Source: Campylobacter curvus (lineage in GTDB: Bacteria > Campylobacterota > Campylobacteria > Campylobacterales > Campylobacteraceae). Taken from it: a stretch of DNA of 64,000 nucleotides. How positions within the stretch are numbered: the stretch's first letter is position 1; every line of letters starts with the position of its first letter. Shown here in pieces: positions 7,005 through 55,497 of the stretch. The notes beneath the pieces were generated by a model that ran no database searches, had not been told where the DNA came from, and saw only the letters and a program-made list of their open reading frames with translations. The stretch spans positions 1,798,001-1,862,000 of the forward strand of contig NZ_CP053826.1 in assembly GCF_013372125.1 (NCBI RefSeq), written 5' to 3'. Both the position numbers and the translations under genes were made by a program.

Positions 7005-7191
7005 GGCTCTGTTATAATAAATCATTGACACTTGCTTCGCAAACCATGTTCGCTCCGCAAGACGCCGAACATATAGCACGATTTACGCGGTCAGCTGCCG
7101 CTTCCCTGCAAATCGGCGACGATAGTGTCGCTTCACAAGGTTTGACTTCGCTCTTGGAAGTTAAAAATCAATGAAATATTGTAACAGAGCC
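7005..7191 (+). mobile_element. MITE-like element copy 1 (between nosZ and nosB)
   Basis: A 187-bp non-coding element. Its ends are inverted repeats: 21 of the outer 24 bases match, starting with GGCTCTGTTA and ending with TAACAGAGCC. It is flanked by an exact 8-bp target duplication, TATTTTAT (6997-7004 and 7192-7199). The interior holds a hairpin (CGATTT ... AAATCG, with GCGG/CCGC inside). It encodes no transposase; the short ORF across its left end (peptide LWLCYNKSLTLAS) is an artefact. The L end, which contains TTATAATAAATC, faces nosB. Confidence 0.9.
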
Positions 7192-7199
7192 TATTTTAT

Positions 7200-7358
7200 T
7201 TGATAAGCATGCCGCGATTTTCGCTGTCGGCCCTGCAGCTTCCTTTGTTTGTAGCGAAGTCTCACTGCAAACGCATAGCGTAAAGCGTCTTGAAAAGCTG
7301 CGAGCGATGTCGCTATTATAAAACGCTCAAAATTTCAAGTCAAATTTCAAAATTTAAA
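7200..7358. other. gene-free spacer between element 1 and the nosZ terminator
   Basis: No coding potential. Bases about 7209-7325 contain a motif, GTAGCGAAGTCTC followed by GCATAGCG, that is also present inside element copy 4 (near 48142-48175). It may be the remnant of a second, older insertion, but its ends cannot be defined. Confidence 0.35.
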
Positions 7359-7375
7359 GGGCGGGAATCCCGCCC
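7359..7375 (-). terminator. intrinsic terminator directly after nosZ
   Basis: GGGCGG and CCGCCC pair perfectly around a short centre, five bases past the nosZ stop; on the minus strand this is followed by TTTAAATTTT. It should end most nosZ transcripts before the accessory nos genes. Confidence 0.8.
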
Positions 7376-7380
7376 AAATT

Positions 7381-9972
7381 TTAAAGACCGGCGTTCTCAT
7401 CGATCCATTTTAGGTATTCGATGATATGCTTTATCTCCTCGTCGCTCATGTGCTGATTTGGCATCCTTAGGTTAAAGTAATTTATCATCGCTTTAACATA
7501 GTCGTCCTCATAAAATTTCGCAGGATCTTTTATGAAATCAGCCACCCATTTCTCGCCGTTCTCGTGTCGCAAAAGCACGCCCGTTAGATCAGGGCCAGAG
7601 CTTACTTGACCGATGACGTGGCAGCCGTTGCATCCGCCTTTTAGATAGGCCTCCTCGCCTTTTGCAGCACCCGCACTCATAGGAGTCGCGATAGCTTTTG
7701 CGAGATTGTTTTTAGCCCTTAGGCCAACGTCGGCGGTTTTTACCATGTATTGCCATACTTGATACTCCCAAAGGATCGCGCCGTTTACGTCGCCTTTTTT
7801 ATAGGCCTCATCGGCTTTTTTCTTGACTTCGGCTATCTTGCTGTATTGATCCAGTGCGTCCTCGACTTGCTCTTTCACCTTCGGATATTTTTCAAAATGT
7901 TTTTCTTTGAGATACGCTACGACCTCTTGTATTACCGCGTCAGTAGCTTTGTTTGTCGCGATGACCTTGTCATACTCGGCTTTTAAAGCCTCAGGGCTTA
8001 GAGCTTTTAGCTTGTTGCCTTTTGCGGATTCGTATTTTTTATTCGGATCTTTAACGAGCAAATATCCCATCATCTCAAGGTGAAGCGCAGAGCAAAATTC
8101 CGTGCAGTAGTAAGGGAAGATGCCTTCCATATCGGCTACGAAATTCACGCTTGCCGTTTTGCCCGGCTCAAGCGATGCGTGGATATTGTATAGATCTATA
8201 CCAAAGCCGTGAGTCTCGTCTTGAGCGCGCTCCAGGTTTGTAAGGTGGATAGTGACGTTATCGCCCTTATTCACTTCGATGTGCTCAGGGTTGATGTGGC
8301 TTCTTATCATCGTTGCAAAGACGGTCACATTTTTGCCGTTTCGCTCGATCCTCTCTTGACCTGCAAGGGTGACATAAGGGCTTGGCTTGCCTGTTCTTGA
8401 GTTTGTTCCCATGTTATAAGTGAGCGCCGGACTTAGCTTGGAAGCTGCGATAGAGACGACATCGTGAGGCTCTCCAAGAGGTATAGGCATATCATATATT
8501 AGATCCATCTTAGCACCGCTTATGTCAATGAGCTGGTGGTTTTGCGGATGAAGAGGTCCTACCGGGTTGAAGCGATCGATAGAAAGCTTATCCAGCGCTA
8601 TAGCGTATTTGCCTACCGGTTTAGAGGACTTGCCCTCCATAGTGTCAAGGTGTCCGATGTTATAATGCACATTTACCTTATCAAGCACCTTTAAATTTTT
8701 ATAGTCCCATTTTATGATCTGAGAGTCGACATAAAGCGAAGTATAGACTATGCCGTCCTTAGAGTCAAAAGAGTTGTGCAGTGGTCCAAGGCCTAGTTCT
8801 ACCTGTCCATGAAGGGCTTTTTTCATATCGAGGATAGGGATGCCATACGGGTCCGTACCGGCAAAATCCTTTTTATCTATGAGCTCTTTTATCTTTCTAA
8901 AGTCATAAACGGAAGCGTGAGTATCGAGTTTTCCGCCGATTATGATGTATCTACCGTCAGGCGTTACGTCTATGCCATGAGGGCTCTTTGACTCAGGTAT
9001 CAAAAATAGTGCTCCCGCATCGACGGCGGCCTTAATAGTGATGACTCTATGGCCGTTTATCTCCATGTAGTTTTTCTTGTCCTTAGCTAGCTTTTCTAAA
9101 ATTTGCCAGTTATAAACGTGCATGAAGTCGGTATCGTTCCTACTAGCACCCGCCTCAAACGGAGGCAAGCCTTTTTCGATGCCGCCTGTATACATCTCGG
9201 TATTTATCGAGTTTGTGAAAGCCCAGCCAAAGCTCTCTCCCTTACCAGCGTCGCTTAGATCTTGCCAGTATGGAGGCAACTCAAGTGAGAAAGAGGCCTT
9301 CTCGTCTATCTTGCCCTTTGGATAGTCGAATTTCCAAAACGTGATCGCACCGCGATAAACCGCCTCGTAGTCGTCTATGGAGTGGTAGTTGTTATCAAGC
9401 GGAGCTGCGTATTGGCTTGCTTCGATGACGTATTCGCTGTTTGGAGTGATGAAGCTACCGCCGTGCTCGCTTTTCATTATCGGATTTACGACGATCTGAG
9501 TGGTCTCGAAATCATGTAAATTTACGACGGCTATACGAGGGTTGGCCTTATCGTTGATGAAAAGATAATCGCCCACATATTCGCCGTTTTTCTCGGTGAA
9601 ATTCGGGTGGTGCGTATCACCCCAGGTTATCTCTTTGCCCCTGATAGCGCCTTGTTTTAGCACCGCCTTCGACTCGTCGTCATAGCCGTATCCTTGCCAA
9701 GGCTCAGGCGTGAAAACGCCGATGTATTTGTAAATTCTCATCGACGGAACGCCGTAAACTAGTATCTGGCCTGATTGACCGCCGGATGAAAATACGATGA
9801 ATTCGTCCTTTCGTCCGCTTGGCTGATAGGTTTTGGCGGCTGCTAGGACGTCTTTCTCGCTGAGTCCGCGCTCTTTCATGACCTGTTCAAGATCACTTGC
9901 GCTACACGCCGCGCTAAAAGACAACCCAAGCAGCGCGATACCCGCGATACAAGAGTTTAAAAACTTTTGCAT
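7381..9972 (-). CDS. nosZ: Nitrous oxide reductase, clade II with C-terminal cytochrome c domain
   Basis: NosZ reduces N2O to N2 in the periplasm as a copper enzyme. The 863-residue protein starts with a Sec-type signal peptide (residues 1-25, no twin arginine), the mark of clade II (atypical) NosZ. Beta-propeller residues 50-560 include the CuZ ligand motif DTHHP at 119-123; the cupredoxin domain holds the CuA motif CTEFCSALHLEM near 623. A haem domain with CNGCH near 781 and a Met-bearing segment (NLRMPNQHM) follows, making this a cNosZ that receives electrons directly through its own haem. AAAAGGAG precedes the ATG. It begins 25 bases after the NapL-like gene, and a terminator separates it from nosB. 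Confidence 0.97.
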   Translation of the reverse strand: MQKFLNSCIAGIALLGLSFSAACSASDLEQVMKERGLSEKDVLAAAKTYQPSGRKDEFIVFSSGGQSGQILVYGVPSMRIYKYIGVFTPEPWQGYGYDDESKAVLKQGAIRGKEITWGDTHHPNFTEKNGEYVGDYLFINDKANPRIAVVNLHDFETTQIVVNPIMKSEHGGSFITPNSEYVIEASQYAAPLDNNYHSIDDYEAVYRGAITFWKFDYPKGKIDEKASFSLELPPYWQDLSDAGKGESFGWAFTNSINTEMYTGGIEKGLPPFEAGASRNDTDFMHVYNWQILEKLAKDKKNYMEINGHRVITIKAAVDAGALFLIPESKSPHGIDVTPDGRYIIIGGKLDTHASVYDFRKIKELIDKKDFAGTDPYGIPILDMKKALHGQVELGLGPLHNSFDSKDGIVYTSLYVDSQIIKWDYKNLKVLDKVNVHYNIGHLDTMEGKSSKPVGKYAIALDKLSIDRFNPVGPLHPQNHQLIDISGAKMDLIYDMPIPLGEPHDVVSIAASKLSPALTYNMGTNSRTGKPSPYVTLAGQERIERNGKNVTVFATMIRSHINPEHIEVNKGDNVTIHLTNLERAQDETHGFGIDLYNIHASLEPGKTASVNFVADMEGIFPYYCTEFCSALHLEMMGYLLVKDPNKKYESAKGNKLKALSPEALKAEYDKVIATNKATDAVIQEVVAYLKEKHFEKYPKVKEQVEDALDQYSKIAEVKKKADEAYKKGDVNGAILWEYQVWQYMVKTADVGLRAKNNLAKAIATPMSAGAAKGEEAYLKGGCNGCHVIGQVSSGPDLTGVLLRHENGEKWVADFIKDPAKFYEDDYVKAMINYFNLRMPNQHMSDEEIKHIIEYLKWIDENAGL

Positions 9973-9997
9973 TTGCTCTCCTTTTATTAAAATGTTT

Positions 9998-10867
9998 TCA
10001 GTCTGCTTTTTTGTATTTCACATCGCCGTCAAAAGCGACACTCAAGATAAAATTTTTATCGGCAAAAATCGCTCTAAGCTCATCTGTATGCACCTTTTGG
10101 GCGCTTAAAATTTTAAAATTCTTATCTAGTTTATAAATTTTACCGTCACCTCCGCCAGCGTAAATTTCACTATCCAAACAGGACAAAGCGCAAATTTTAG
10201 TTTCGGCTATCTTTGCGCGAAGCCCGCTTTTTAGGCTCACCACCTCACCGTCAAAAAGCCCGAATATCACATCTTGTGAGCCCTTTAAGATACAGGCGCT
10301 AGTAGGCACGAAGCCAAGATCTAAGAGCCTGGTAGCCTCTAAATTTTGAGGATCTAGACTATAAACCGCGCCGTCGTAGCCAGCCATCACAAGCTCACTA
10401 TCCAGCGCAAGCAGAGCTGAAATCCTATAAATTTGAGGAAAATCTTTCTTGATGAGCTTTTTGGAGCTCATATCATAAACGATCAGCGTATTTTGCCCGA
10501 TGAGAGCGTAAATTTTATCGTTTAGGATCTTCATGAGTGAAATTTCGCCCCAAGCCTTGGTGTCGGCGAGAGAAAATACCGATCTTTGCCCCAAAACGGG
10601 GTCAAATTTTATCACTTCGCCGCTACTAAGCCCGACATAAAGAGCCGATTTGTCATAAGCTAGGCAGGTGATCTTGTCTTTTGAATGGATATTTTTTATG
10701 ATCTTTTGCGTATCGATGTTTAAAATTTTGACCAAGCCGTCGTCCAAAAGTGCGACTTGAGCGAGCTTAACGTCGTAGTCACAGCCTTGGACGCGAGCAA
10801 AAACAATAGTAAAAAGCAAACTTAAGAAAAGAAAAATCTTCATACACATGTCCGTTTTCATTACCAT
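9998..10867 (-). CDS. Periplasmic WD40/beta-propeller protein, NapL-like
   Basis: A 289-residue exported protein. The annotated start gives MVMKTDMCMKIFLF; the signal peptide really begins at the ATG at 10843 (MKIFLFLSLLFTIVFA), which may be the true start since neither site has a strong ribosome binding site. The mature part has repeated beta-propeller blades with motifs such as LALDSELVMAGYDGAVYSLD, LDSEIYAGGGDGKIYKLD and ILSVAFDGDVKYKK. This resembles NapL, an accessory protein of the Wolinella and Campylobacter nap clusters with no known mechanism. Lying 25 bases before nosZ, it is probably co-transcribed with it. Function in N2O respiration is inferred from context only. Confidence 0.65.
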   Translation of the reverse strand: MVMKTDMCMKIFLFLSLLFTIVFARVQGCDYDVKLAQVALLDDGLVKILNIDTQKIIKNIHSKDKITCLAYDKSALYVGLSSGEVIKFDPVLGQRSVFSLADTKAWGEISLMKILNDKIYALIGQNTLIVYDMSSKKLIKKDFPQIYRISALLALDSELVMAGYDGAVYSLDPQNLEATRLLDLGFVPTSACILKGSQDVIFGLFDGEVVSLKSGLRAKIAETKICALSCLDSEIYAGGGDGKIYKLDKNFKILSAQKVHTDELRAIFADKNFILSVAFDGDVKYKKAD

Positions 10868-11240
10868 TTTTCAAGAACTCTCTGAAAACTATACCTGTTA
10901 TACTCTTAAATAAATATTAATACATAAATACCGAGAAACGGTGCTTTTTAGGCATTTTGCTATATAAATTTAAATCATTAATAAATTTTTTAAGAATTTC
11001 CGTGATAAAAAAATGACAAAATTTAATCGATATTTCAAAGCGAAATTTCGATACCGATCTTTGGAGTAAAAATTTAAACTCTTTGACGCGTGATATCAAA
11101 ATTCACAAAGAGATATTAAGCAAATATAAATTTTTACTATTAATTTTTTATAAAATCGTAAAGCGACCGATGCGTAAAATCATCGTAAAAAAATCATTTT
11201 TCTTAAAATTTTATAAACACACCGCACTAGGTAGGATTTG
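10868..11240. promoter_or_regulatory. AT-rich promoter region upstream of the nosZ transcription unit
   Basis: About 370 gene-free bases. On the minus strand GTATAAC lies near 10898-10904, a possible -10 box for the NapL-like gene and nosZ. An almost perfect inverted repeat, TCGATATTTC (11027-11036) and GAAATTTCGA (11042-11051), could be a regulator site. A 60-codon open frame at 10917-11099 has no ribosome binding site and unlikely composition, so it is not called as a gene. Confidence 0.35.
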
Positions 11241-11272
11241 AAATTTAGCCCCCGCAAAGGGGAGCTAAATTT
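11241..11272 (-). terminator. terminator after the rhodanese-multihaem gene
   Basis: AAATTTAGC (11241-11249) pairs with GCTAAATTT (11264-11272), extended inward by CCCC/GGGG. It abuts the stop codon of the gene ending at 11274 and closes this operon. Confidence 0.75.
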
Positions 11273-11273
11273 A

Positions 11274-13286
11274 TTAAGATAAGCTTGCGATATAAGCGTA
11301 TATCATCATAAAGAGGAAGATCATGCCAGTGATCAGCATCGCAAATCCGGCGATCTTAGCGATAAGCTTATACGAGCCAAAGCTCTCGTTTTTATGGTAA
11401 AGCTTCTCGAGCATGCCGCTTTTTGCGAGGCGTTCATACCATTTGACACGCTCTTGCTTGATTTCTTGCTCTGACAATGTCCCGCTAAAGATGACCATAT
11501 CCATCGGGAAGCGATCGGCTCTGAAGTGAGTGTTGAAAAAGTGGATCGCAAATATAAATCCGGTCGCCAGTAGCGCCTCGTCCGAGTGCACCAGTGTGCT
11601 TAGATTTATCATCCAGCCCGGTAAGAAATTTGCAAACCAGTTAGGAAACCACAACACAAGCCCGCTAAATCCGATGATGAACATACCCCAAAAGACGGCT
11701 AGATAGTCAAATTTCTCCCAGTAGGTCCATCTGTCAAACTGCGGCCTCTCGCCCTTGCCGATAAACCACAAGAAATGCGCCTTCATATCAGCAAAGTCCT
11801 GCCATCTTGGCATTAGCGAGTCAGCGTCGAATAATCGCTTGAAAAATCCTGAGCCCTTTTTACTTTGAACGATGATGATCTCAAAGATATGGCTAAAGAA
11901 CACCGCAAACATTATGATGGCCGAGATATGGTGGATCTTTGTCGCCATTATCGGTCCGCCCATCATATCCATCATGCTTTGCGCCCAAGGTGCGTCGTAA
12001 AATTTCTGTGGCAAGCCCGAGAATGCAAGCCCCAAGAACGACGCGGCCATAAAGAAGTGCTGGATTATGTGGAATGCACTAAATCTCTTTATCGTTACCG
12101 CATCGTTGTGAGCCGCCTCTCGCGCCTTTTTCCACTCTAAAGGTCTCTCCAGTCTCGTTTTTATGAGCTTGATAGACCAAAGCAGAGTGTGAAGACCAAA
12201 GAACACGAACACCGTTATCACAAGCCCTGTCATAAACACATACGCAGAGTGTAGAAGCGGGAAATTCTCGCTGTCGGTATGATCTGCGTGTGCGATGAAG
12301 CCGGTGAAATTTAGATTTGAGTTCGGGTGACACTCGCCGCAGGTTTTTACGCGATTTTTAGGATTTATCGTAGATTTTGGATTATCAAGGCTCATCACGT
12401 TGTGAGTGCCGTGACAGTCAAAACACGCCGCTACCCTTACTGCATCGCCCGGTTTGTTTAGTAAAAGCGCTTTGCCGTGGAAAGTCTGATGATAAAGGCT
12501 TTGCTCTTTTTCGTGACAGCTGCCGCAGTTACTTTCGCTGACTTGCTTCAAATTTTTCGCTACGCCGCTTTTATCGACGATGTGGATACCGTGACAATCG
12601 GTGCAGTTTGGTAGCTTCCTGCCATCTTTTAGCTCCTTTGTCACGAGCGGTGAATGCACGCTCTCCTCAAAATCAGCCTTTACATCTTTGTGGCAGCTTT
12701 TGCAGTTGTCATTTACGAATTCTTTATCCTTAAAAAGCTCCTCGCGTTCGGCCTTGCTCGCATATAAAATTTTAGGCGAGTCGTGGCAGTCGCGACAGCT
12801 TGGCACGCTAGCGAACCTAAGTCTGCCGTGTACTCCGTCGTGAAAGTTAGTTACCTCTTTGTTTGTGAGTTTGTCTGTCTTTTGCGATGAGACGGTTTTC
12901 TTGCCTGCGATCACCCAACCTTCGATGCCGTTTGTCATAAAATATAAATTTTTATAACCCTTTTGTTTTGCGACCAAGGCTACATCGTTTGGCTCTCTTG
13001 AAGAGGAATTTAGCCCGTATATGACGATGTTGGCGTCTTTGTCTTCAGGTAGCATCGAAGCGGTGTTGTTCGCATCTACGTTCATCGCACCGTCGATATG
13101 CCTAAGCTTAAATTCAACCGGCGTATTCGTATCTAAAAAATAGGCGTTTTTAGCTTTTAAATTTTCAGCTTCGTTAAGACTTATAGGCTTGAGCCCGTCA
13201 ATACCTAAATTTACATCAGCAGGCATCGACGCAAAGGCAGGGCAAATCATCAAAGCAATAAATAAAAACTTGGCAAATTTTAACAT
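11274..13286 (-). CDS. Rhodanese - hexahaem cytochrome c - cytochrome b-like fusion (putative quinol dehydrogenase)
   Basis: A 670-residue fusion. After a signal peptide (1-19), residues 25-130 form a rhodanese-like fold (DANNTASMLPED, GIEGWVIAGK) in which the loop that should carry the catalytic cysteine reads YGLNSSSRE, so it cannot be a classical sulfurtransferase. Residues 160-320 hold six CXXCH haem sites (CRDCH, CKSCH, CTDCH, CGSCH, CFDCH, CGECH). From about 345 on, four or five membrane helices with conserved histidines (FHIIQHFF, KIHHISAIIMFAVFFSHIFE, HSDEALLATGFIFAIHFFNTHFR) look like a di-haem cytochrome b. The layout suggests oxidation of menaquinol and electron transfer through periplasmic haems to the octahaem protein encoded just upstream. 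No symbol is known to me. Confidence 0.75.
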   Translation of the reverse strand: MLKFAKFLFIALMICPAFASMPADVNLGIDGLKPISLNEAENLKAKNAYFLDTNTPVEFKLRHIDGAMNVDANNTASMLPEDKDANIVIYGLNSSSREPNDVALVAKQKGYKNLYFMTNGIEGWVIAGKKTVSSQKTDKLTNKEVTNFHDGVHGRLRFASVPSCRDCHDSPKILYASKAEREELFKDKEFVNDNCKSCHKDVKADFEESVHSPLVTKELKDGRKLPNCTDCHGIHIVDKSGVAKNLKQVSESNCGSCHEKEQSLYHQTFHGKALLLNKPGDAVRVAACFDCHGTHNVMSLDNPKSTINPKNRVKTCGECHPNSNLNFTGFIAHADHTDSENFPLLHSAYVFMTGLVITVFVFFGLHTLLWSIKLIKTRLERPLEWKKAREAAHNDAVTIKRFSAFHIIQHFFMAASFLGLAFSGLPQKFYDAPWAQSMMDMMGGPIMATKIHHISAIIMFAVFFSHIFEIIIVQSKKGSGFFKRLFDADSLMPRWQDFADMKAHFLWFIGKGERPQFDRWTYWEKFDYLAVFWGMFIIGFSGLVLWFPNWFANFLPGWMINLSTLVHSDEALLATGFIFAIHFFNTHFRADRFPMDMVIFSGTLSEQEIKQERVKWYERLAKSGMLEKLYHKNESFGSYKLIAKIAGFAMLITGMIFLFMMIYAYIASLS

Positions 13287-13311
13287 AGCCGTTTTCTCCT
13301 TTATTGTTTTT

Positions 13312-13335
13312 AAAAAACGAGGGGACGAACCCCTC
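13312..13335 (-). terminator. terminator or attenuator between the octahaem and rhodanese-multihaem genes
   Basis: GAGGGG (13319-13324) pairs with CCCCTC (13330-13335); on the minus strand a run GTTTTTT follows. It lies 12 bases after the octahaem gene stop and before the ribosome binding site of the next gene, so it should lower downstream expression. Confidence 0.75.
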
Positions 13336-13347
13336 TAAATTTTGTGC

Positions 13348-16025: not shown

Positions 16026-16096
16026 AAAGAAGCGTATTATAACTTAAAGTGCTTAAAATCAAACAAGAATACCGCAAAATCGATGCGAAATTTAAT

Positions 16097-16140: not shown

Positions 16141-16148
16141 CCATCACT

Positions 16149-23887: not shown

Positions 23888-24072
23888 GGCTCTATTATAA
23901 TAAATCATTGACACTTACTTCGCAAACCATGTTCGCTCCGCAAGACGCCGAACATATAGCACGATTTACGCGGTCAGCTGCCGCTTCCCTGCAAATCGGC
24001 GACGATAGTGTCGCTTCACAAGGTTTGACTTCGCTTTAAGAGCTGAAAATAAATAAATATTTTAACAGAGCC
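23888..24072 (+). mobile_element. MITE-like element copy 2
   Basis: A 185-bp copy with ends GGCTCTATTATAATA and TTTTAACAGAGCC and an exact 8-bp target duplication ATTTTTAT (23880-23887, 24073-24080). It is very close to copy 1 over the first 150 bases. Its L end, reading outward as TTATTATAATAGAGCC, faces the NifU-like gene. Confidence 0.9.
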
Positions 24073-32289: not shown

Positions 32290-32685
32290 TTACCAAACTG
32301 TGCAAAGAACCTCGCCGCCAACACCTACTTTACTCGCTTCTATACCGCTCATAACGCCTTTACTGGTGCTGACTATGACCGTTCCATAGCCATTTTTAAA
32401 GCGTTTGATATCATCTTTTCCTTGATATACTCTACGTCCTGGCTTTGAAACTCTTTTTAGTTCGTTTATGATGCTTCTGCCATGATCGTCGTATTTTAAA
32501 ACTACATTTATGAATTTCTTGTTGTTCTCTTCTACGACATTATAGCTTTCTACGTAGCCCTTTGCTGCAAGGATGGAAAGTGTAGCCTCGACGACTTTAG
32601 AGTGAAGTAGTTTAGCTGTTTCAAGCTTTCTCATGCTTGCATTTCTAATACGGGTTAGTCCGTCTGATATTAAATCATTTAACAT
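32290..32685 (-). CDS. rpsH: Ribosomal protein uS8
   Basis: A 131-residue 30S central-domain protein. [16 protein letters not shown] at the start and the C-terminal [16 protein letters not shown](I)EA and GEVLCTVW are diagnostic. S8 is the spc operon repressor in E. coli; the hairpins just downstream are of interest in that light. Confidence 0.98.
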
Positions 32686-32694
32686 ATCTTTTCC

Positions 32695-32880
32695 TTACCA
32701 GCTTGCTTTTTTAAGACCGGGGATTAGCCCCTCGTTAGCCATTTTTCTTAGGCAAACACGGCAAATTCCAAAATCTTTATAAACAGAGTGCGGACGTCCG
32801 CAAATTTGGCATCTTGTATAGCCGCGCACTTTAAATTTAGGAGCACGAGCGGCTTTTGCTATCATTGATTTTTTTGCCAT
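32695..32880 (-). CDS. rpsN: Ribosomal protein uS14, zinc-binding type
   Basis: A 61-residue S14 of the short, zinc-ribbon form with CQIC and CRVC pairs. The start at 32880 ([16 protein letters not shown]) is preferred over an upstream in-frame start at 32910, which would run back into rplE. Confidence 0.97.
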
Positions 32881-44019: not shown

Positions 44020-44200
44020 GGCTCTGTTATAAAGAAGTATTGATTTTTGACTTTCAAAACAAAGTCAAACCTTGATAGTAAGCTTATCGCCGCTATTCTG
44101 CCCCAGTTACGAGTGCAACGAAGTAAAATCAATGAAGACATAAAGCCAAACGCGATTTTTAGAAGCGAAGCGAGCGTCAATGATTTGTTATAACAAAGCC
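44020..44200 (-). mobile_element. MITE-like element copy 3, diverged
   Basis: A 181-bp copy in the opposite orientation: GGCTCTGTTATAA at the left and TTATAACAAAGCC at the right. The shared core TTTGACTTCG-like and the L end with AATCATTGAC are recognisable, but the middle differs. Flanks AAACGAAA and AAATAAAA match in six of eight positions, suggesting an old insertion. Its L end (right side here) lies 12 bases before the first possible start codon of the GGDEF-EAL gene. Confidence 0.75.
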
Positions 44201-47007: not shown

Positions 47008-47025
47008 TATGCTATAATCGCCGCC

Positions 47026-47931
47026 ATGAAAACTTTAATATTTCCATTTTTAGCGTTTATTTTCACCGTAGTTGCCTATTTTTGGCCCGATATGTTTGTA
47101 GGCTTAAAGCCCGCCATCACGCCGCTTTTGATGCTCATCATGCTCAGCATGGGCATCACGCTTAGCCTCGAGGACTTTCGTCAAGTCGCGAGGCAGAAAT
47201 TCGCGCTAGTTTTAGGCGTCGTGTTGCAGTTTCTAATTATGCCGGCAGCTGCATTTTTGATCTGTTTGGCCTTAGGACTGGAGGGCGACTTGCTAATAGG
47301 CATGATGCTGGTAGGCACTAGCGCGGGTGGCACGGCGTCAAACGTGATGAGCTACCTAGCTAAGGGCGATCTGGCGCTATCTGTTAGCATGACGCTCACT
47401 TCGACGCTACTTTCAGTGGTACTGATGCCGTTTCTCACGTGGCTATACATCGGACAAAAGATCGATGTGCCTGTAACAAATATGCTCATAGATCTCGTGC
47501 AGATCACGCTTTTACCGCTCATACTCGGTGTGATCTTAAATAAATTTTTAGGCAAAGGCGTCAAGCGTATAGAGCCGTTTTTACCGGCCGTTTCGATCGC
47601 TGTCATCGTGCTCATCATCGCTATCGTAGTCGCGCTGAATAATAAACGTTTACACGAAGTCGGTTTTATCGTCGTGATCGCCGTGATACTTCATAATGGC
47701 GCGGGATTATTTTTTGGCTACGTTGGGGCTAAAATTTTTGGCTTTAGCGAGAAGATCGCCAGAACGATCGCTATCGAGGTCGGCATGCAAAATTCCGGCC
47801 TAAGCGTAGCTCTAGCGCTCAAATATTTCTCAGGACTCAGCGCCCTACCCGGAGCGATATTTAGCATCTGGCACAATATCTCGGGCTCGCTTCTAGCCGG
47901 ATACTGGGGCAGCAAGACAAAAAATAAGTAG
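47026..47931 (+). CDS. Bile acid:sodium symporter family transporter
   Basis: A 301-residue inner membrane protein with about nine helices, of the SBF / YocS-like group. Recognised segments are ITPLLMLIMLSMGITLSLEDF, GTSAGGTASNVMSYLAKGDLALSVSMT (the conserved cross-over motif) and VGMQNSGLSVALALKYF. It probably co-transports an organic anion with Na+; bile acids or pantoate-like acids are possible substrates. The third base of its stop codon is the first base of element copy 4, so the insertion lies exactly at the end of the gene. Confidence 0.88.
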   Translation: MKTLIFPFLAFIFTVVAYFWPDMFVGLKPAITPLLMLIMLSMGITLSLEDFRQVARQKFALVLGVVLQFLIMPAAAFLICLALGLEGDLLIGMMLVGTSAGGTASNVMSYLAKGDLALSVSMTLTSTLLSVVLMPFLTWLYIGQKIDVPVTNMLIDLVQITLLPLILGVILNKFLGKGVKRIEPFLPAVSIAVIVLIIAIVVALNNKRLHEVGFIVVIAVILHNGAGLFFGYVGAKIFGFSEKIARTIAIEVGMQNSGLSVALALKYFSGLSALPGAIFSIWHNISGSLLAGYWGSKTKNK

Positions 47932-48231
47932 GCTCTGTTATAATAAATCTTAACACCTACTTCGCTTCTGCTTTGCAGTTGCGAACGAAGTGAAGCAAAA
48001 ACCTTGCTCACTCCAGGAGCGACCTGGCACGGACGCGAACAGCGTTTGTGCGGGAGCGAGTAGCCGAACATATAGCACGATTTTTTGCTTCGCCATGCTC
48101 GCAACTGCAAGCAGGCCGCGGTCAGCTCTGCTTCCCTGTCCTCGTAGCGAAGTCTCGTTACGAGTGCATAGCATGAAGTAAAAATCGGCGGCGATAGCGT
48201 CGCTTCACAAGGTTTGACTTCGCTTTGTAAG
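47931..48231 (+). mobile_element. MITE-like element copy 4, expanded and lacking its right end
   Basis: About 300 bases starting with GGCTCTGTTATAATAAATC. The interior is longer than in other copies and includes an imperfect inverted repeat (about 47968-48001 with 48081-48114) that could fold into a long hairpin. It ends in GCGTCGCTTCACAAGGTTTGACTTCG-type sequence as in other copies, but the terminal TAACAGAGCC is missing. No target duplication can be shown. Confidence 0.75.
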
Positions 48232-48280
48232 TAAAATACCGCGTAAAGGTAGTAAATTTACGCTTTACACGATAAGTAGA

Positions 48281-48304
48281 TTGCTACCTAAATTTAGGTA
48301 GCAA
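48281..48304. terminator. perfect palindrome between symporter/element 4 and metB
   Basis: A 24-bp perfect palindrome (TTGCTACCTAAA and its complement) lies four bases past the metB-like stop. The T tract is on neither side strong. It could act as a bidirectional terminator for these convergent genes. Confidence 0.55.
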
Positions 48305-48308
48305 TTAT

Positions 48309-49451: not shown

Positions 49452-49488
49452 GTTTTTCCTTTCTAAATTTGTAAATTTTAGACGAAAT

Positions 49489-50226
49489 TCAAATATCCAT
49501 CGCCGAGATAAAATTTACGATACGTTCGTTTTGGCTCGTGAAAAACTGCTCCGGCGTACCGTCAAAGGCGATCTTGCCCTTGTCTAAAAATAAAATTCTA
49601 TCCGCGACTTTACGAGCGAAATTCATATTGTGCGTAACGATGATGAGCGATTTTTTCTCACGCGAGAGGCTGATGATGACCTTTAAAACCTCCGCTTCAA
49701 GCTCAGGATCAAGCGCGCTCGTGGGCTCATCGAGCAGCAAGAAATATGGATCCATCGCAAGCGCACGAGCGATCGCCACGCGCTGAGACTGCCCGCTAGA
49801 AAGGCGGTTTGGATAAGCGTCTTTTTTATCGCCCAGCCCCACTTTGCCAAGCAGTTCCTCCGCCTTTTTTATCGTGGCTTGTTTTGAGACGCCCAGCACG
49901 TGCACGGGACCTTCGATGACGTTTTCTAGCACATTTAGGTGCGGGAAGAGATTAAAGCCCTGAAAGACCATGCCCGTGTGCCTGCGAAACGGCAACAGCT
50001 CGTTTTGGCTAAATTTAGCTCCAAAATTTATCCTCTCTCGCCCAAGCTCCAGCTCTCCGCTTTGCGGAATTTCCAGCAGATTTATGCAGCGCAGCAGGGT
50101 TGATTTGCCAGAGCCTGATGAGCCCACGATGACCGTCGTTTGCCCGTCAAAGATCTCGACGCTGATGTCATCAAGGACGAGATGGTCGCCAAAAGATTTG
50201 TTTAAATTCGTAAATTTAACGGACAT
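49489..50226 (-). CDS. Amino acid ABC transporter, ATP-binding protein
   Basis: ATPase of a polar amino acid importer, 245 residues from the ATG at 50226 (MSVKFTNLNKSF), which overlaps the permease stop (ATGA) with AAGG upstream. A longer open frame to 50529 is antisense-like sequence inside the permease gene and rejected. Motifs: Walker A GSSGSGKST near 35, signature LSSGQSQR near 135, Walker B LLLDEPTSALD. The family is HisP/GlnQ/TcyN. With metB next to it, cystine or methionine-related substrates are a reasonable guess. Confidence 0.92.
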   Translation of the reverse strand: MSVKFTNLNKSFGDHLVLDDISVEIFDGQTTVIVGSSGSGKSTLLRCINLLEIPQSGELELGRERINFGAKFSQNELLPFRRHTGMVFQGFNLFPHLNVLENVIEGPVHVLGVSKQATIKKAEELLGKVGLGDKKDAYPNRLSSGQSQRVAIARALAMDPYFLLLDEPTSALDPELEAEVLKVIISLSREKKSLIIVTHNMNFARKVADRILFLDKGKIAFDGTPEQFFTSQNERIVNFISAMDI

Positions 50227-50900
50227 CAGACATACCTTGAAGTGTATTTTTCGAGTTTGGCTTGTAGGAACGTAAGCAGCGTGCAAACGACCAGGTAGAT
50301 GAGCGCGGCGAGCACGTAGAGCACGAGTGGCTCGAAGGTGCGCGCGGCGATACGCTGAGCGACCATAAACATATCGACCATTGTGATAGACGCGGCGAGC
50401 GAGGTGTCTTTGACGAGCCCGATGAAGGTATTTGATAGCGGCGGTAGCGAGATCCTGACTGCTTGCGGGGCGATGATGCGGCGTAAAATTTGCGCGTGGC
50501 TCATGCCAAGCGAGGTCGCCGCCTCCCACTGTCCCTTTGGCACGGATAGGATCGAGGCTCGCACCGACTCCGAGGCGTATGCGCCCACGTTTAGGCTAAA
50601 TGCGATGATCGCCGCGCTCCAAGTATCTAGCGTCACGCCCACAGCCGGCAAGCCGAAAAATATGATGAAAAGCTGCACGAGCATTGGCGTGCCGCGAAAT
50701 ATCCAAACGTAAGCGCCAAAGATGAATTTTAAAATTTTAAAATTCGACAGGCGCGCTATGGCGGTGATGATCGCGATCACCAGCCCGCAGGCAAAGGAAA
50801 TGAGCGTGAGCGGGATCGTGACCTTTACCAGCGCGTCTAACATCGGCAACGTCGAGGTCGAGACGAGCTCGATTATGCGGTTTATTCTATCTGCGTCCAA
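50226..50900 (-). CDS. Amino acid ABC transporter, permease
   Basis: A 224-residue HisM/TcyL-type permease with about five helices. The coupling motif EAATSLGMSHAQILRRIIAPQAVRISLPP near residues 125-155 matches the EAA loop consensus. It lies 12 bases after a binding-protein gene and overlaps the ATPase start. The transporter would be a homodimer of this subunit, because no second permease is present. Confidence 0.92.
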   Translation of the reverse strand: MDADRINRIIELVSTSTLPMLDALVKVTIPLTLISFACGLVIAIITAIARLSNFKILKFIFGAYVWIFRGTPMLVQLFIIFFGLPAVGVTLDTWSAAIIAFSLNVGAYASESVRASILSVPKGQWEAATSLGMSHAQILRRIIAPQAVRISLPPLSNTFIGLVKDTSLAASITMVDMFMVAQRIAARTFEPLVLYVLAALIYLVVCTLLTFLQAKLEKYTSRYV

Positions 50901-50912
50901 AATTTACCCCGA

Positions 50913-51665
50913 CTACTCTGTCACGTCTTTGCCAAAATATTTTACAGAAATTTCTTTTAGCTTGCCCTCGGCGCGAAGCTCGTCAAGGGCTTTGTTTATC
51001 TGCTCCAAAAGCTTTGTGTTGCCCTTTTGCACGGCGGCTGCGGTGTAGTCCTTCTCCTCGCTTGTGGCGGCTATTTTCACTGGTGCGTCGGGGCGGGCTT
51101 TGATAAAGTCGTAAAATACGATGTTGTCTCTAATGACGCAATCAACTCTGCCCGCAAAAAGCAGCTCCATGCTCTTTGCAAAGCTATCGACTACGACGTG
51201 CTCGGCGCCGTATTTTTTGGCTACTTGCGCCCAGTTGCTAGTCGCGGAGTCGGCGTCCTTTTTGCCTTTTAGATCGGCAAAGCTTTTGATGCTATCGTTG
51301 TCCTTGCGAACGATGATCGCGCCATAGACGACGGTATAGGGCTTTGAGAAGTCGTATTTTTTCTTGCGCTCTTCTGTCGGGCTCATTTGGTTAAACACTG
51401 CGTCCGCCTTGCCCGCGTCAAATCCAGCCAGCATGCTATCCCACGGCGCGGCGAAAAACTCTATCTTTAAATTTAGCTTCCCAGCGACCGCGCGAGCGAT
51501 ATCCACGTCAAAGCCTGTGAGCTCGTTTTTCTCGTCATAAAACGAAAACGGCGCGTATGTGCCCTCGGTCGCGACGGTGAGAACGCCATCTTTTATCGTT
51601 TTGGCCTGTAAATTTAGCCCCAAAGCCAAAATGGCGGCAAATTTAAGCAAATTTGCAAATTTCAT
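50913..51665 (-). CDS. Amino acid ABC transporter, periplasmic binding protein 1
   Basis: A 250-residue SBP family 3 protein with a signal peptide (1-21). The mature start GVLTVATEGTYAPFSFYDEKNELTGFDVDIARAVA is typical of polar amino acid binding proteins; FNQMSPTEERKKKYDFSKPY and the NDSIKSFADLKGK region follow. It directly precedes the permease and shares about two thirds of its sequence with the paralogue upstream. Resembles cystine-binding TcyJ/TcyA proteins; substrate not established. Confidence 0.92.
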   Translation of the reverse strand: MKFANLLKFAAILALGLNLQAKTIKDGVLTVATEGTYAPFSFYDEKNELTGFDVDIARAVAGKLNLKIEFFAAPWDSMLAGFDAGKADAVFNQMSPTEERKKKYDFSKPYTVVYGAIIVRKDNDSIKSFADLKGKKDADSATSNWAQVAKKYGAEHVVVDSFAKSMELLFAGRVDCVIRDNIVFYDFIKARPDAPVKIAATSEEKDYTAAAVQKGNTKLLEQINKALDELRAEGKLKEISVKYFGKDVTE

Positions 51666-51742
51666 GATTTGTCCTTTAAGAAAGATATGATTTTACTTGT
51701 ATCTTTATGTTGATGTATATGCCAACGGCAATCTAAAGCGAA

Positions 51743-51748
51743 AATATA
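51743..51748 (-). promoter_or_regulatory. possible -10 box of the ABC transporter operon
   Basis: On the minus strand TTTTTTGTGATATATTTTC contains TATATT in a T-rich Campylobacter-type context, about 78 bases before the binding protein 1 start. Confidence 0.4.
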
Positions 51749-51789
51749 TCACAAAAAATATAAATTTTGCAAAATTTAGCAAGCCGGGC

Positions 51790-51819
51790 GGGCGTCAAAT
51801 TTAACCAAATCTAACGCCC
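51790..51819 (-). terminator. weak stem-loop after binding protein 2
   Basis: GGGCGT (51790-51795) pairs with ACGCCC (51814-51819) with an 18-base loop, seven bases past the stop of binding protein 2. There is no T tract, so termination would be partial. Confidence 0.35.
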
Positions 51820-51825
51820 GTATCA

Positions 51826-52599
51826 TCACTCTGAGACATCCTTGTCAAAATATTTCATCGAAATTTCCTTTAGCTTGCCCTCGGCTTTTAGCTCTTGTAA
51901 GGCTTTATTTACGGCCTTTACGAGTGTGTCGCTTCCTTTATGAAAAAGAGCGGCGGAATATATCGGCTCACTCGCTGTGGCGGCTATTTTTATAGGGGCG
52001 TCCGGTTTTTGCTTTACAAAGTCAAAAAATGTTATCGTGTCGTTTATCGTGGCGTCCGCTCGTCTTGCGATGATGAGCTCCACGCCCTTGCTAAAGCCAT
52101 CTACTGTAACGACGTTTGCACCGTATTTCTCGGCTACTTGTGCCCAGTTGCTAGTGGCCGAGTGAGCGGAATTTTTACCTTTTAGATCCTCAAATTTTTT
52201 TATGCTATCGTTATCCTTGCGAACTACGAGCGCGCCGTAAGCCGTAGTGTAAGGCTCGCTGTAATCGTATTTTACCTTACGCTCAGGCGTGATGCTCACT
52301 TGATTAAACACTACATCGGCCTTGCCTGCGTTAAATGCCGCTAGCATCGCGTCCCACGGCGCTTCGATAAATTTTACTTTCACGCCAAGCTTGGCTGCGA
52401 CCGCTTTTGCGACCTCGACGTCGTAGCCGACAAGCTCGTTTTTCTCATCATGAAACGAATAAGGCGAATACGTCCCCTCGGTCGCGATTCTGATGACGCC
52501 GTCTTTTTTGATCTGCTCGAGCGAACTTTCGCCAAATGCGCCCACGCATACGGCGAGACTTGCCAAAGTCAGGAATTTTGCAAATTTTTGTAAAAATAT
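51826..52599 (-). CDS. Periplasmic amino acid-binding protein 2, with probable ATA start
   Basis: A second SBP family 3 protein. From TTG at 52566 it has 246 residues but only half a signal peptide. In-frame sequence upstream (FLQKFAKFLTL) completes a normal signal peptide, and the codon at 52599-52597, five bases after a perfect AAAGGAG, is ATA. No ATG or GTG occurs before the upstream stop at 52620. ATA may be a rare start or the result of a mutated ATG. The mature part (GVIRIATEGTYSPYSFHDEKNELVGYDVEVAKAVAAKLG) matches binding protein 1 closely. Expression may be low if ATA is used. Confidence 0.8.
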   Translation of the reverse strand: MFLQKFAKFLTLASLAVCVGAFGESSLEQIKKDGVIRIATEGTYSPYSFHDEKNELVGYDVEVAKAVAAKLGVKVKFIEAPWDAMLAAFNAGKADVVFNQVSITPERKVKYDYSEPYTTAYGALVVRKDNDSIKKFEDLKGKNSAHSATSNWAQVAEKYGANVVTVDGFSKGVELIIARRADATINDTITFFDFVKQKPDAPIKIAATASEPIYSAALFHKGSDTLVKAVNKALQELKAEGKLKEISMKYFDKDVSE

Positions 52600-52638
52600 A
52601 TCTTCTCCTTTTTTACTTTATTTTTACAATAAGCGTGG

Positions 52639-52644
52639 ATTATA
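52639..52644 (-). promoter_or_regulatory. -10 box of the binding protein 2 gene
   Basis: Perfect TATAAT on the minus strand in TATGATATAATCC, about 40 bases before the ATA codon. It shows that the gene has its own promoter despite the defective start. Confidence 0.6.
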
Positions 52645-52733
52645 TCATAAAAATTTTAAAAATTTTACAGGAGCGTTGTAGTAAGTATTGCACTAAAACT
52701 GCTATACTTTCGAAAAAATAAAAAGGAATATCG

Positions 52734-53570
52734 ATGCAAGAGATAAACGAGCAAAATTTTAGCGGCGAAAGGGCGATGTTTTGGTGCAAGGACACGAGAT
52801 TTTCGTATTGCGTCTTTAATGAGGGTGAGTCCCCGCTAAAGCACAGTCAAAATTTAGAGCTAAATTTCACGCTTTTTAAGTGGAAATATCCGCTTTGGTA
52901 TAGCAAAAACGCCAGGCTGGAAAGCTGTACTTTCTACGAGATGGCAAGGGCCGGCGTCTGGTATAGCTCGGACATTTTTTTCAACCAATGCACCATCGAA
53001 GCGCCCAAAAATTTCAGACGCTCAAAAAACATCACTCTACAAAACGTGACGCTGCCAAACGCCGCCGAGACACTTTGGAGCTGTGAAAACGTGACGCTTA
53101 AAAACGTGAGCGCCAGGGGCGATTATTTTGCGATGAACAGCACGAACGTCAGCATTGAAAATTTAAATTTAGCAGGCAACTACAGCTTTGATGGCGTCAA
53201 AAATTTAGAGATCAAAAACTCTAAGATCATCTCAAAAGACGCCTTTTGGAACAGTCAAAACGTGACCGTGACGGGTAGCTTCATCTCGGGCGAATACCTT
53301 GGCTGGAACTCGAAAAACATCACATTCATCGACTGTGTCATCCAAAGCGAGCAAGGCATGTGCTACATCGACAATGTCGTGCTAAAAAACTGCAAGACGG
53401 TAAACACGAACCTGGCGTTTGAGTATTCAAGCGTGCAGGCTGAAATTTCAAGCGGTATCGACAGCGTGAAAAACCCGATCGGCGGGCGCATCAGAGCGCA
53501 AAATTTCGGCGAAGTGATACTTGAAAAAGATAGGATCGACCCCGCCAAAACGCAAATAGAGCAAATTTGA
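52734..53570 (+). CDS. DUF3737 family protein, right-handed beta-helix
   Basis: A 278-residue protein made of repeated short strands with pattern N-V-T-L-x-N-V / N-I-T-F-x-D-C (for example ENVTLKNVSARGDYF, QNVTVTGSFISGEY, KNITFIDCVIQSEQ). This is the DUF3737 family, a parallel beta-helix of unknown function found in many gut and oral bacteria. No signal peptide is present, so it is cytoplasmic. AAAAGGAA precedes the ATG by 6 bases. It is followed after 38 bases by the PatB-like gene. Confidence 0.8.
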   Translation: MQEINEQNFSGERAMFWCKDTRFSYCVFNEGESPLKHSQNLELNFTLFKWKYPLWYSKNARLESCTFYEMARAGVWYSSDIFFNQCTIEAPKNFRRSKNITLQNVTLPNAAETLWSCENVTLKNVSARGDYFAMNSTNVSIENLNLAGNYSFDGVKNLEIKNSKIISKDAFWNSQNVTVTGSFISGEYLGWNSKNITFIDCVIQSEQGMCYIDNVVLKNCKTVNTNLAFEYSSVQAEISSGIDSVKNPIGGRIRAQNFGEVILEKDRIDPAKTQIEQI

Positions 53571-53608
53571 TATAATGGCTGAAAATTTTAATACTGCGAG
53601 GTAAAACG

Positions 53609-54772
53609 ATGAAATACGACTTTGACACGCCCGTCGATAGAAGCGGCACAAACTCCTCAAAATGGCGCACCGTAGGCAACGAGCTACCGATGTGGGTGGC
53701 AGATATGGACTTTCGCGCTGCGCCTGAAATTTTGAAAGTCTTACAAGATCGCCTAGATAACGGCGTCTTTGGCTATTCGTTCATCCCAAAGGAGTGGAAC
53801 AACGCTATTTGCTCGTGGTGGCAACGCAGACATGGCGTGAGATTCGAGCCAAACTGGGCGATATTTTGCACCGGCGTGATCCCCGCTCTCTCGACCGCGA
53901 TCCGCCGTTTTACTAGCCCGGGAGATAAAATTTTAGTCCAAAGCCCCGTTTATCACGTATTTTTTAACTGTATCGCAAACAACGGCAGGGAAATTTCGGC
54001 AAACGAGCTCGTGTATAAAAACGGCAAATACGAGATAGACTTTGACGATCTTGAAAAAAAGCTCGCAAACCCGCTCACGACGATGATGCTACTTTGCAAC
54101 CCGCACAATCCTATCGGCAAAATTTGGGACAAGGCCACACTTGGCAAGATCGGCGAACTATGCCATAAACACGGCGTACTAGTCATCAGCGACGAGATCC
54201 ACTGCGACATCACCGATCCGGGAAAGAGCTATACGCCTTTTATAAGCGTTTCCGAGCTTTGCGCGCAAAACACCATCGCTTGCATCTCGCCTACAAAAGC
54301 CTTTAATATCGCCGGCCTTCAAAGCTCGGCAGTCGTCGTGCCAAACGAAAATTTAAGAGTAAAAATGGCCGCAGCGATAAACTACGACGAAGTCGGCGAG
54401 GCCAATGCCTTTGCGATAATCGCTGCTATCGCAGCATTTGAGCGTGGTGAAACGTGGCTAGACGAGATGAGAGCCTACATCTACGAGAACAAAAAAATCG
54501 TGCAAGAATTTATAAAAAATGAAAATTTACCCGTGCATCTAGTCGCGTCCGAGGCGACCTATCTTTTGTGGTTGGACTGCTCCAAGGTCTGCGAGGATTC
54601 CAGCGATTTTATGAAATTCCTACGCGAGAAAGCGGGACTTTGGCTAAATGACGGCAACGCTTACAGAGGGGATAATTTTTTCCTTCGTATGAATATCGCG
54701 ACACAAAAAAGCCGCGTCATCGAAGGGCTAAATCGCCTAAAAAACGGGATAAATTTATATTTGAAAAGATGA
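53609..54772 (+). CDS. patB: PatB/MalY-type C-S lyase (cystathionine beta-lyase-like aminotransferase)
   Basis: A 387-residue PLP enzyme of the fold-type I MalY/PatB family that cleaves C-S bonds of cystathionine or cysteine conjugates. The start MKYDFDTPVDRSGTNSSKW and ELPMWVADMDF are typical; the PLP lysine is in SPTKAFNIAGLQSSA near 232, and LLCNPHNPIG and SDEIHCDI carry the cofactor contacts. C-terminal Arg for the substrate carboxylate is in FFLRMNIAT. It ends before a bidirectional terminator. Together with metB it forms a sulfur amino acid theme in this region. Confidence 0.9.
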   Translation: MKYDFDTPVDRSGTNSSKWRTVGNELPMWVADMDFRAAPEILKVLQDRLDNGVFGYSFIPKEWNNAICSWWQRRHGVRFEPNWAIFCTGVIPALSTAIRRFTSPGDKILVQSPVYHVFFNCIANNGREISANELVYKNGKYEIDFDDLEKKLANPLTTMMLLCNPHNPIGKIWDKATLGKIGELCHKHGVLVISDEIHCDITDPGKSYTPFISVSELCAQNTIACISPTKAFNIAGLQSSAVVVPNENLRVKMAAAINYDEVGEANAFAIIAAIAAFERGETWLDEMRAYIYENKKIVQEFIKNENLPVHLVASEATYLLWLDCSKVCEDSSDFMKFLREKAGLWLNDGNAYRGDNFFLRMNIATQKSRVIEGLNRLKNGINLYLKR

Positions 54773-54863
54773 TTGAAGCAAGAAGGCACTCACTTGCGAG
54801 ACAGTGTCGTTTTACCACGTCAAAAATAGGAACGAGGCTCGCACAGCGATCAATCAAAATTTG

Positions 54864-54892
54864 GGATTTAAAGCGCATTTGGCTTTAAATCC
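54864..54892. terminator. bidirectional terminator between patB and the lipoprotein gene
   Basis: Perfect 11-bp stem GGATTTAAAGC (54864-54874) / GCTTTAAATCC (54882-54892) with a 7-base loop, between convergent genes. Confidence 0.7.
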
Positions 54893-54901
54893 ACTAGAAA
54901 A

Positions 54902-55249
54902 TCATTTATCCTCATATACCAAAGACATCTGACCATGACCGAAATTTAATATCCCTTCACACTTTTTGAAATGTATCTCGATGCCCTTGTCGCTAACCAT
55001 CCTTATGCCGCTAGCCGCAGGAGCGTGCTTCATGTCGAATTTATAGCCCATAGAGTCCGTAAAGACGGCTGTTTCAAAAAGATCGCTCGATACTAGCGTG
55101 GCTTTATAGTCTTTGTAGTCTCCTGTTCCGTGAAATTCGATCGTTTTTGTCTCTTTAGCCATAGATGGCGCCTGAGTAGCGGTATTTGAAGTCGCGCAGC
55201 CGCTTAAAAATGCGAGTACGATCAAAGATGAAGCTAGAATTTTTTTCAT
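54902..55249 (-). CDS. Lipoprotein, MliC/lysozyme-inhibitor-like
   Basis: A 115-residue lipoprotein: signal peptide with lipobox LSGC (Cys18). The mature domain has VSSDLFETAVFTDSMGYKFDMKHAPAASGIRMVSDKGIEIHFKKCEG, which follows the MliC pattern (S-x-S-G-x-x-Y, G-x-x-x-x-F) of membrane-bound inhibitors of c-type lysozyme. It probably faces the periplasm or outer membrane and protects peptidoglycan. A single remaining cysteine (KKCEG) is odd, as MliC usually has none or a pair. Element copy 5 lies 62 bases upstream. AAAGGAT precedes the ATG. Confidence 0.7.
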   Translation of the reverse strand: MKKILASSLIVLAFLSGCATSNTATQAPSMAKETKTIEFHGTGDYKDYKATLVSSDLFETAVFTDSMGYKFDMKHAPAASGIRMVSDKGIEIHFKKCEGILNFGHGQMSLVYEDK

Positions 55250-55310
55250 GTTTATCCTTTGGGAAATTATGACAGATTTTACTTTTTAAAGATAAATTTA
55301 AAATAAAATT

Positions 55311-55497
55311 GGCCCTGTTATAATAAATCATTGACACTTGCTTCGCAAACCCTGTTTGCTCCGCAAAGCGCCGAACATATAGCACGATTTACGCGGTCAG
55401 CTACCGCTTCCCTGTAAATCGGCGGCGATAGCGTCGCTTCACAAGGTTTGACTTCGCTCTTGAAAGATGAAAATCAATGAAATATTTTAGTAGAGCC
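55311..55497 (+). mobile_element. MITE-like element copy 5
   Basis: A 187-bp copy with ends GGCCCTGTTATAATA and TATTTTAGTAGAGCC and an exact 8-bp target duplication ATAAAATT (55303-55310, 55498-55505). The interior is nearly the same as copy 1. The L end reads outward (TTATTATAACAGGGCC) toward the lipoprotein gene. Confidence 0.9.

Follow-up and report, generated by a model that had tools for sequence, protein, structure and literature searches.

A new family of transposed MITEs in Campylobacter curvus, with a modular interior and a probable IS1595-type mode of movement

Results

Five copies of a repeat in the window

The window, a 64,000-bp stretch of the Campylobacter curvus genome, holds five copies of a repeat. 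The copies and their parts are:

6997..7004, no strand, left 8-bp target duplication of copy 1, TATTTTAT
7005..7191, plus strand, copy 1, short MITE of 187 bp; terminal inverted repeats (TIRs) matching at 21/24, exact target duplication TATTTTAT, all five optional segments absent
7192..7199, no strand, right 8-bp target duplication of copy 1, TATTTTAT
7200..7336, no strand, ~137 bp adjoining copy 1, missing from at least 16 of 19 congeners
23888..24072, plus strand, copy 2, short MITE of 185 bp, exact target duplication ATTTTTAT
44020..44200, minus strand, copy 3, rearranged, both ends present; AAATAAAA repeat offset on the left by five bases
47931..48231, plus strand, copy 4, long; segments A, B, C and D present, E absent, right end not recognisable
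47966..47996, plus strand, segment A in copy 4, score 62/62
48015..48047, plus strand, segment B in copy 4, score 62/66
48087..48120, plus strand, segment C in copy 4, score 44/68
48140..48172, plus strand, segment D in copy 4, score 62/66
55311..55497, plus strand, copy 5, short MITE of 187 bp, exact target duplication ATAAAATT

The initial annotation had described these copies as one family of five MITE-like elements. For copies 1, 2 and 5 this holds: their ends and exact A/T-only 8-bp duplications (TATTTTAT, ATTTTTAT and ATAAAATT) are as described, direct reading of the sequence gives the same match between the inverted ends of copy 1, and ungapped comparison with copy 1 gives 87% identity for copy 2 and 92% for copy 5 (94% and 92% when gaps are allowed). 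The other two copies depart from the description. The interior of copy 3 is different and rearranged, and the five bases CGAAA separate its AAATAAAA repeat from its left end; copy 4 carries four extra segments and lacks a recognisable right end, and the gene upstream of it (47026-47931) has a TAG stop codon whose final base is the first base of the copy. The DNA adjoining copy 1 is possibly an older family remnant; within it, positions 7251-7279 bear a weak likeness to segment D (score 30/66). A short ORF crossing the left end, reported to encode the peptide WLCYNKSLTLAS, is present as a frame on direct reading. The end motif GGCTCTGTTA, with at most one mismatch, occurs 10 times in the window, compared with a mean of 3.3 and a maximum of 7 in 100 shuffles.

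Genome-wide distribution and target duplications

A search of the 1.97-Mb genome with the 187-bp copy, as first suggested, returned 48 matches, a scale the initial annotation had missed. In the examined part of the genome the family forms 88 intervals, some of them fragments of one element, and both ends are present in 50. These 50 end pairs were picked blind to flanking sequence. An 8-bp target duplication with at most one mismatch flanks 32 of them (24 exactly), compared with 0-4 end pairs at each of eight other offsets; re-dealing the flanks gave a mean of 2.9 duplications and a maximum of 9 in 1000. The duplications are A/T-only in 27 of 32 cases, compared with 2.6% of background 8-mers; five are not A/T-only, and 18 of the 50 end pairs have no recognisable duplication. 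Duplication-bearing copies are 170-542 bp long. The density is one copy in every 22 kb if all 88 intervals are counted, and one in every 39 kb if only the 50 bounded elements are. Simple ORF calls place 44 of 50 elements between ORFs, and by naive ORF calls one orientation outnumbers the other 31 to 12 (two-sided binomial, 0.005). Short copies diverge by 14% on average, so that the main burst is not necessarily recent. Among 298 genomes sampled across the order, the end motif is enriched solely in this one (35 occurrences versus 0-5 in the others). The TIR pattern had no match in the genome contig collection, and the interior pattern had four, in genomes whose titles place them in unrelated phyla.

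Positions occupied in every relative, with no empty sites, would speak against transposition, and this is not what we found. Congener G007 has a single family copy, and six congeners have the pre-insertion, single-target site for it, one of the six having a changed base in its target; in G012 and G192 the match to the left flank and that to the right flank share exactly 8 bp at this site. At the copy 1 site, 19 of the 19 congeners that match both sides have no element. No clean empty site for the window copies was found among the congeners; identity around these copies is ~68-84%, and the intergenic DNA is not alignable base by base. The target duplications and the pre-insertion sites in congeners therefore demonstrate that the repeats are transposed MITEs, and the family is new. 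The earlier label of MITE-like is borne out by the 8-bp duplications and the empty sites for the G007 copy.

Optional segments and a fold-back core

The interior has five optional segments, A-E, and all ten pairs of segments show all four combinations across 56 scored loci. The initial annotation had not noticed this modularity. The elements fold back strongly (z of -5.3 as DNA and -5.7 as RNA), and the core retains its pairing through two-sided changes, which occur at 14 of 48 pairs compared with a shuffled mean of 6.7. A manual count of the core helices gave four pairs departing to or from G-U and six to A-C; these departures favour neither strand, and we do not propose RNA-level selection from the direction of wobble.

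Several other candidates were tried and set aside. A known RNA was rejected, the window containing no Rfam match at gathering thresholds. For an rRNA intervening sequence, seven conserved rRNA words were sought in the examined DNA; one isolated 14-base word was found in the window and taken as chance. A 16S intervening sequence of ~200 bp has been reported for C. curvus 525.92 (PMC3734277, available text). Left ends contain TGNTATAAT in 14 of 50 cases and TATAAT in 23 of 50; a promoter there is only a lead, and scanning the region around copy 1 for sigma-70 promoters did not list the site.

Search for the mobilising enzyme

The statement that the copies encode no transposase agrees with our search, in which the sole tblastn match at E < 1 (one IS1595 query against the examined own-genome DNA) was a separate IS, at 32.7 kb; transposase classes other than IS1595 inside the copies were judged by small copy size alone. 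The only profiles sought in genomes were PF12762, PF13610 and PF01610. IS1595 transposases are present in the C. curvus genome, where family membership was confirmed, and in 6 of 18 congeners; in one of these six the match falls short of the curated cut-off. IS6 transposase (PF13610) was found in none of these 19 genomes. ISL3 was absent from the C. curvus genome and present in one of 18 congeners, where GGCTC ends were absent from the best three candidates. Of the two movers first proposed, IS6- or IS1595-like, the latter is thus favoured and the former disfavoured.

The initial suggestion to look for an IS sharing the MITE ends yielded none. No autonomous IS with GGCTCTGTTATAA ends occurs among 18 IS1595 loci of the C. 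curvus genome and its relatives, among 29 loci from end-pattern matches in other genomes of the order, or among five plasmid IS1595 copies. Nine of those 18 loci have GGCTC ends and an exact 8-bp duplication, which is A/T-only in six of the nine. The resident IS1595, the genome's one copy, has only GGCTC in common with the MITE ends. A plasmid IS annotated as ISAcra1-like (IS1595; copy L240) starts with GGCTCT and has no duplication at that site, two further IS1595 copies bear AAAAATTA duplications, and in a Campylobacter concisus plasmid IS1595 remnant GGCTC ends were absent from the best three candidates. At none of these IS1595 copies did the ends agree with those of the MITEs over the length of a TIR. 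Because the stretch they share is GGCTC/GGCTCT only, we class the MITEs as working like IS1595-mobilised elements, not as proven derivatives.

GGCTCTGTTATAA-type ends are found inside GGCTCTGTTTTAA-type ends, and an IS1595 copy abuts a family remnant, inside which it probably sits. These apparent nested insertions suggest more than one wave of insertion.

Discussion

We read these repeats as MITEs in high copy number, mobilised in trans by an IS1595 (IS1016-like) DDE transposase, with a probability of about 0.75; that the enzyme belongs to the IS1595 class is, taken by itself, likely. The transposase would recognise GGCTCTGTTATAA-type terminal inverted repeats and, cutting with an 8-bp stagger, insert the element into DNA that is A/T-rich, for the most part A/T-only, and chiefly intergenic. 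The autonomous partner of the MITEs may have been lost from the strain or may be located elsewhere. A partner that one strain and a partial search did not yield may still exist, and MITEs are also called without one. GGCTCT ends, 8-bp A/T targets and the transposases present in the genus favour IS1595 (IS1016-like) over IS6.

An IS6-family transposase is an unlikely mover. IS6-type ends, such as GGCTCTGTTGCAAA, start similarly to the MITE ends. The IS6 family also generates 8-bp target repeats, and the available text of PMC7986276 mentions two MITEs of that family, 227 and 336 bp long; such MITEs have these duplications and small size in common with the elements here. Against this, IS6 transposase is absent from this genome and 18 congeners, and the A/T-only character of 27 of 32 duplications is the preference reported for ISApl4, of the IS1016 subfamily, whose 8-bp duplications are preferentially A/T-rich (PMC12561309, available text). 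That no partner IS sharing the MITE ends was found, in a search limited to three transposase profiles, would also fit a transposase class outside PF12762, PF13610 and PF01610; we consider this improbable, since GGCTC(T) ends and 8-bp A/T-rich duplications are common to IS1595 elements of the same genus. Strong fold-back, two-sided changes in the core stems, intergenic location and the orientation bias might instead point to a structured, RNA- or protein-binding repeat of BIME or BOX type, maintained by selection and mimicking transposition in its ends and flanks. This is very unlikely: the duplications are nearly confined to the correct offset, the empty sites are precise, and the structure may instead stem from one arm correcting the other. 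The empty sites and duplications already largely refute this selected-repeat reading. Later host use of some copies is compatible with the data; a non-transposed origin is not.

The family put forward here, as a MITE by structure and not by function, appears to have an unusual, reassorting interior. Segments A-E may have been lost, gained or swapped between copies; the simplest route would be recombination or gene conversion among the copies, together with hairpin slippage. We tentatively suggest a combinatorial MITE, in which at least five hairpin-prone segments would be interchangeable cassettes at fixed joints of one transposable frame, exchanged among copies, so that the family would evolve by reassortment as well as transposition while its fold-back arms are kept complementary. 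Correia elements and other bacterial MITEs differ from this family in their ends and target duplications, and we know of no segment reassortment of this kind among them. They resemble it in inverted ends, small size and strong secondary structure, as introduced in the available text of PMC3049150. The same text describes the BOX repeats of Streptococcus pneumoniae, which are likewise modular, folded and high in copy number (BOX 125), with TIRs and target duplications, and variable in length (67-637 bp, compared with 170-542 bp for duplication-bearing MITEs). Compared by description, not by sequence, BOX elements carry boxB as a tandem array flanked by boxA and boxC, whereas the MITEs have different segments that vary independently at fixed internal joints. 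The IS1595/IS1016-like elements (ISApl4, PMC12561309, available text; the ISAcra1-like L240; Campylobacter loci L031, L066, L075-L080 and L082) resemble the MITEs in their ends, which read GGCTC(T) or GGGGCT, and in their duplications, which are 8 bp long and A/T-rich in the cases where they were found. In contrast to these elements the MITEs have no transposase, and the first 5-6 bases alone are common to their ends and those of congener ISs.

An intergenic repeat as dense as this is likely to give rise to false short ORFs, to alter gene ends and to provide sites for recombination. With the end motif enriched in this genome alone and one congener carrying a single copy, the elements are possible strain markers. 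They also offer a test case of a MITE family without a known partner transposase, and their independently assorting segments make the evolution of bacterial MITE interiors directly testable.

Family members in the window and the genome

The initial annotation described five MITE-like elements of one family in the window, and all five are present:

7005-7191: copy 1, 187 bp
23888-24072: copy 2, 185 bp
44020-44200: copy 3, interior rearranged
47931-48231: copy 4, longer form
55311-55497: copy 5, 187 bp

Copies 1, 2 and 5 have ends of the GGCTCTGTTA type and, as described, exact, A/T-only 8-bp duplications. Copy 3 retains the family ends, but its AAATAAAA repeat is displaced by five bases, and copy 4 belongs to the family, but its right end is not recognisable. 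The end motif was more frequent in the window than in every one of 100 shuffles. At 47922-47940, the TAG stop codon of an upstream transporter-like gene ends on the first base of copy 4. Direct repeat blocks at 50915-52312, spaced 913 bp apart and 69–83% alike, are perhaps tandem duplicated genes.

The genome is a single contig of 1,974,918 bp. The proposed whole-genome search with the 187-bp copy returned 48 matching places and a 542-bp long form returned 99, counts which overlap each other and take in pieces. Merging the matches of eight family members gave 88 intervals in 293 kb of this genome’s DNA, some of them pieces of one element. This genome has 35 occurrences of the end motif GGCTCTGTTANAA, versus 0–5 per genome in 297 others sampled from the order, and a whole-element search of 30 relatives (18 congeners) found a copy in one genome only, G007. 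No family copy was found on plasmids or phages (blastn) or in viral contigs (two exact patterns), and the exact 24-base end had no match in species genomes, collections that may lack near relatives. No description of a Campylobacter MITE was found among the titles and abstract openings listed; because this coverage omitted most subscription journals and ISfinder, it is weak evidence that the family is new to the literature.

Ends and target duplications

For each interval, the best end pair was picked blind to its flanks, allowing at most two mismatches of nine per end. Both ends were present in 50 of the 88 intervals. Of these bounded elements, 32 carried 8-bp flanking duplications differing at one position at most (24 exact), and the other 18 had none. 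Eight other offsets, used as a control, gave 0 or 1 exact and 0–4 one-mismatch duplications, and over 1000 trials with re-dealt right flanks the count averaged 2.9 and never exceeded 9, compared with the 32 observed. Of the 32 duplications, 27 consist of A/T only, a composition found in 2.6% of the 8-mers of this DNA.

Empty sites in relatives

The G007 element, flanked by AATTTTTA on each side, lies at the 3' end of what reads as a miaA gene; the insertion alters the final codons of this miaA-like gene (L062:1501-1512). The flanks of the element were compared with ten congeners and with the window’s source genome. Both flanks matched in all ten congeners, none with an element match there. The matches to the two flanks have an overlap of precisely 8 bases in G012 and in G192. 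The check for empty sites urged by the initial annotation succeeded for this copy: in six congeners (G012, G013, G017, G149, G192 and G312) the alignment spans the predicted empty site, with one target base changed in G149, while the alignment was partial in G001 and below the score limit in G009, G018 and G260. The G007 element is 89% identical over its full length to the source-genome copy at 1373404-1373589, whereas its flank matches in that genome are only 68–82% identical; because of this difference, lateral transfer of the element appears likely from the sequence comparison.

When 4 kb around copy 1 was compared with 26 congeners, 19 matched on both sides, none of them with an element match between or any element in the 60 bases preceding the nosZ-side match. 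In 16 of these 19 the two flank matches almost touch, and therefore about 137 further bp beside copy 1 are also absent there, an absence not readable in G003, G005 and G014; this adjoining stretch is perhaps an older remnant. In the region fetched from five congeners, no blastn match covered copies 2–5. Copy 2 had flank matches on both sides in four congeners and on a single side in the remaining one, and flank matches were one-sided in four congeners each for copies 3, 4 and 5; divergence precludes base-level comparison.

Candidate transposases

An IS6- or IS1595-like enzyme encoded elsewhere had been suggested for mobilisation, and only the second part of this suggestion gained support: IS1595 matches were found in the source genome and, among 18 congeners, in six (G006 under the cut-off), but IS6 was found in neither the source genome nor any of the 18. 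ISL3, which was additionally sought, was absent from the source genome and present in one of 18 congeners, where its best candidates lacked GGCTC ends. The single IS1595 transposase of the source genome lies within an intact 746-bp IS (L031:1423-2168) with matching GGCTCAAGATAAGTTAA ends and a AAATCTTA duplication. This IS abuts a family remnant (32565-32709), inside which it probably inserted. The transposase has a DDE domain alone (Pfam), which fits the IS1016 group, in which, according to PMC8101967, the zinc-finger domain is absent.

The 2.6-Mb congener G005 has 26 IS1595 matches. Across 18 IS1595 loci examined, GGCTC ends with an exact 8-bp duplication were found in the source-genome copy and 8 of 10 G005 copies, and were absent from the remaining congener and outgroup loci. 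Elements of G005 (L066, L071 and L075-L082) mix three end types, GGCTCAAG, GGCTCAATT and GGCTCTCTT, in various pairings, which suggests hybrid IS. On plasmids, an ISAcra1-like copy starts GGCTCT without a duplication, and among five IS1595 copies examined, two combine GGGGCTGTCC ends with AAAAATTA duplications. No IS examined carries the ends of the MITE itself. On these results together, we put the probability that an IS1595-class enzyme mobilises the family at about 0.7.

Modular interior and folding

Alignment of 16 elements revealed segments present or absent at shared joints. We scored segments A–E by approximate matching in the 88 intervals, of which 56 gave conflict-free scores at four or five positions and 32 were dropped. 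The short form, lacking all five segments, accounts for 27 of the 56 loci, and each of the ten segment pairs shows all four combinations, with a smallest cell of 3. Because some absent states in the 16-element alignment are replacements and not clean deletions, we infer that exchange between copies is more likely, and repeated identical loss less likely. Segment A has a further match in the opposite orientation at a different position of the long form. Sixteen copies of 180–192 bp share a mean identity of 86% (range 61–97%).

Copy 1 folds with z scores of -5.3 (DNA) and -5.7 (RNA), and copy 4 with -3.9 (DNA). Across 21 aligned short copies, that of G007 among them, 93.2% of cells pair (98–99% in core helices 3 and 4, 88% in the terminal helix), and two-sided changes occur at 14 of 48 pairs versus 6.7 in shuffles and 3–7 in slid versions. 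These counts are inflated by related rows, and the structure itself derives in part from the sequences aligned. If one arm were corrected by the other, an identical pattern would result. For these reasons, the pairing pattern is no proof of selection.

Gene context

By simple ORF calls, 44 of the 50 bounded elements lie between ORFs, 6 overlap one and none lies inside. An orientation was called for 43 intergenic elements, of which 31 point at an opposite-strand gene. At two places, 1382974 and near 1969901, a GGCTCTGTTTTAA-type end is followed within 25 bases by one of the GGCTCTGTTATAA or GGCTCTGTTGCAA type, stacking that may be read as nested insertion. Reading inward, left ends contain TATAAT in 23 of 50 elements and TGNTATAAT in 14 of 50 (for example, window 7005-7020); it is possible that these ends constitute a candidate mobile promoter.
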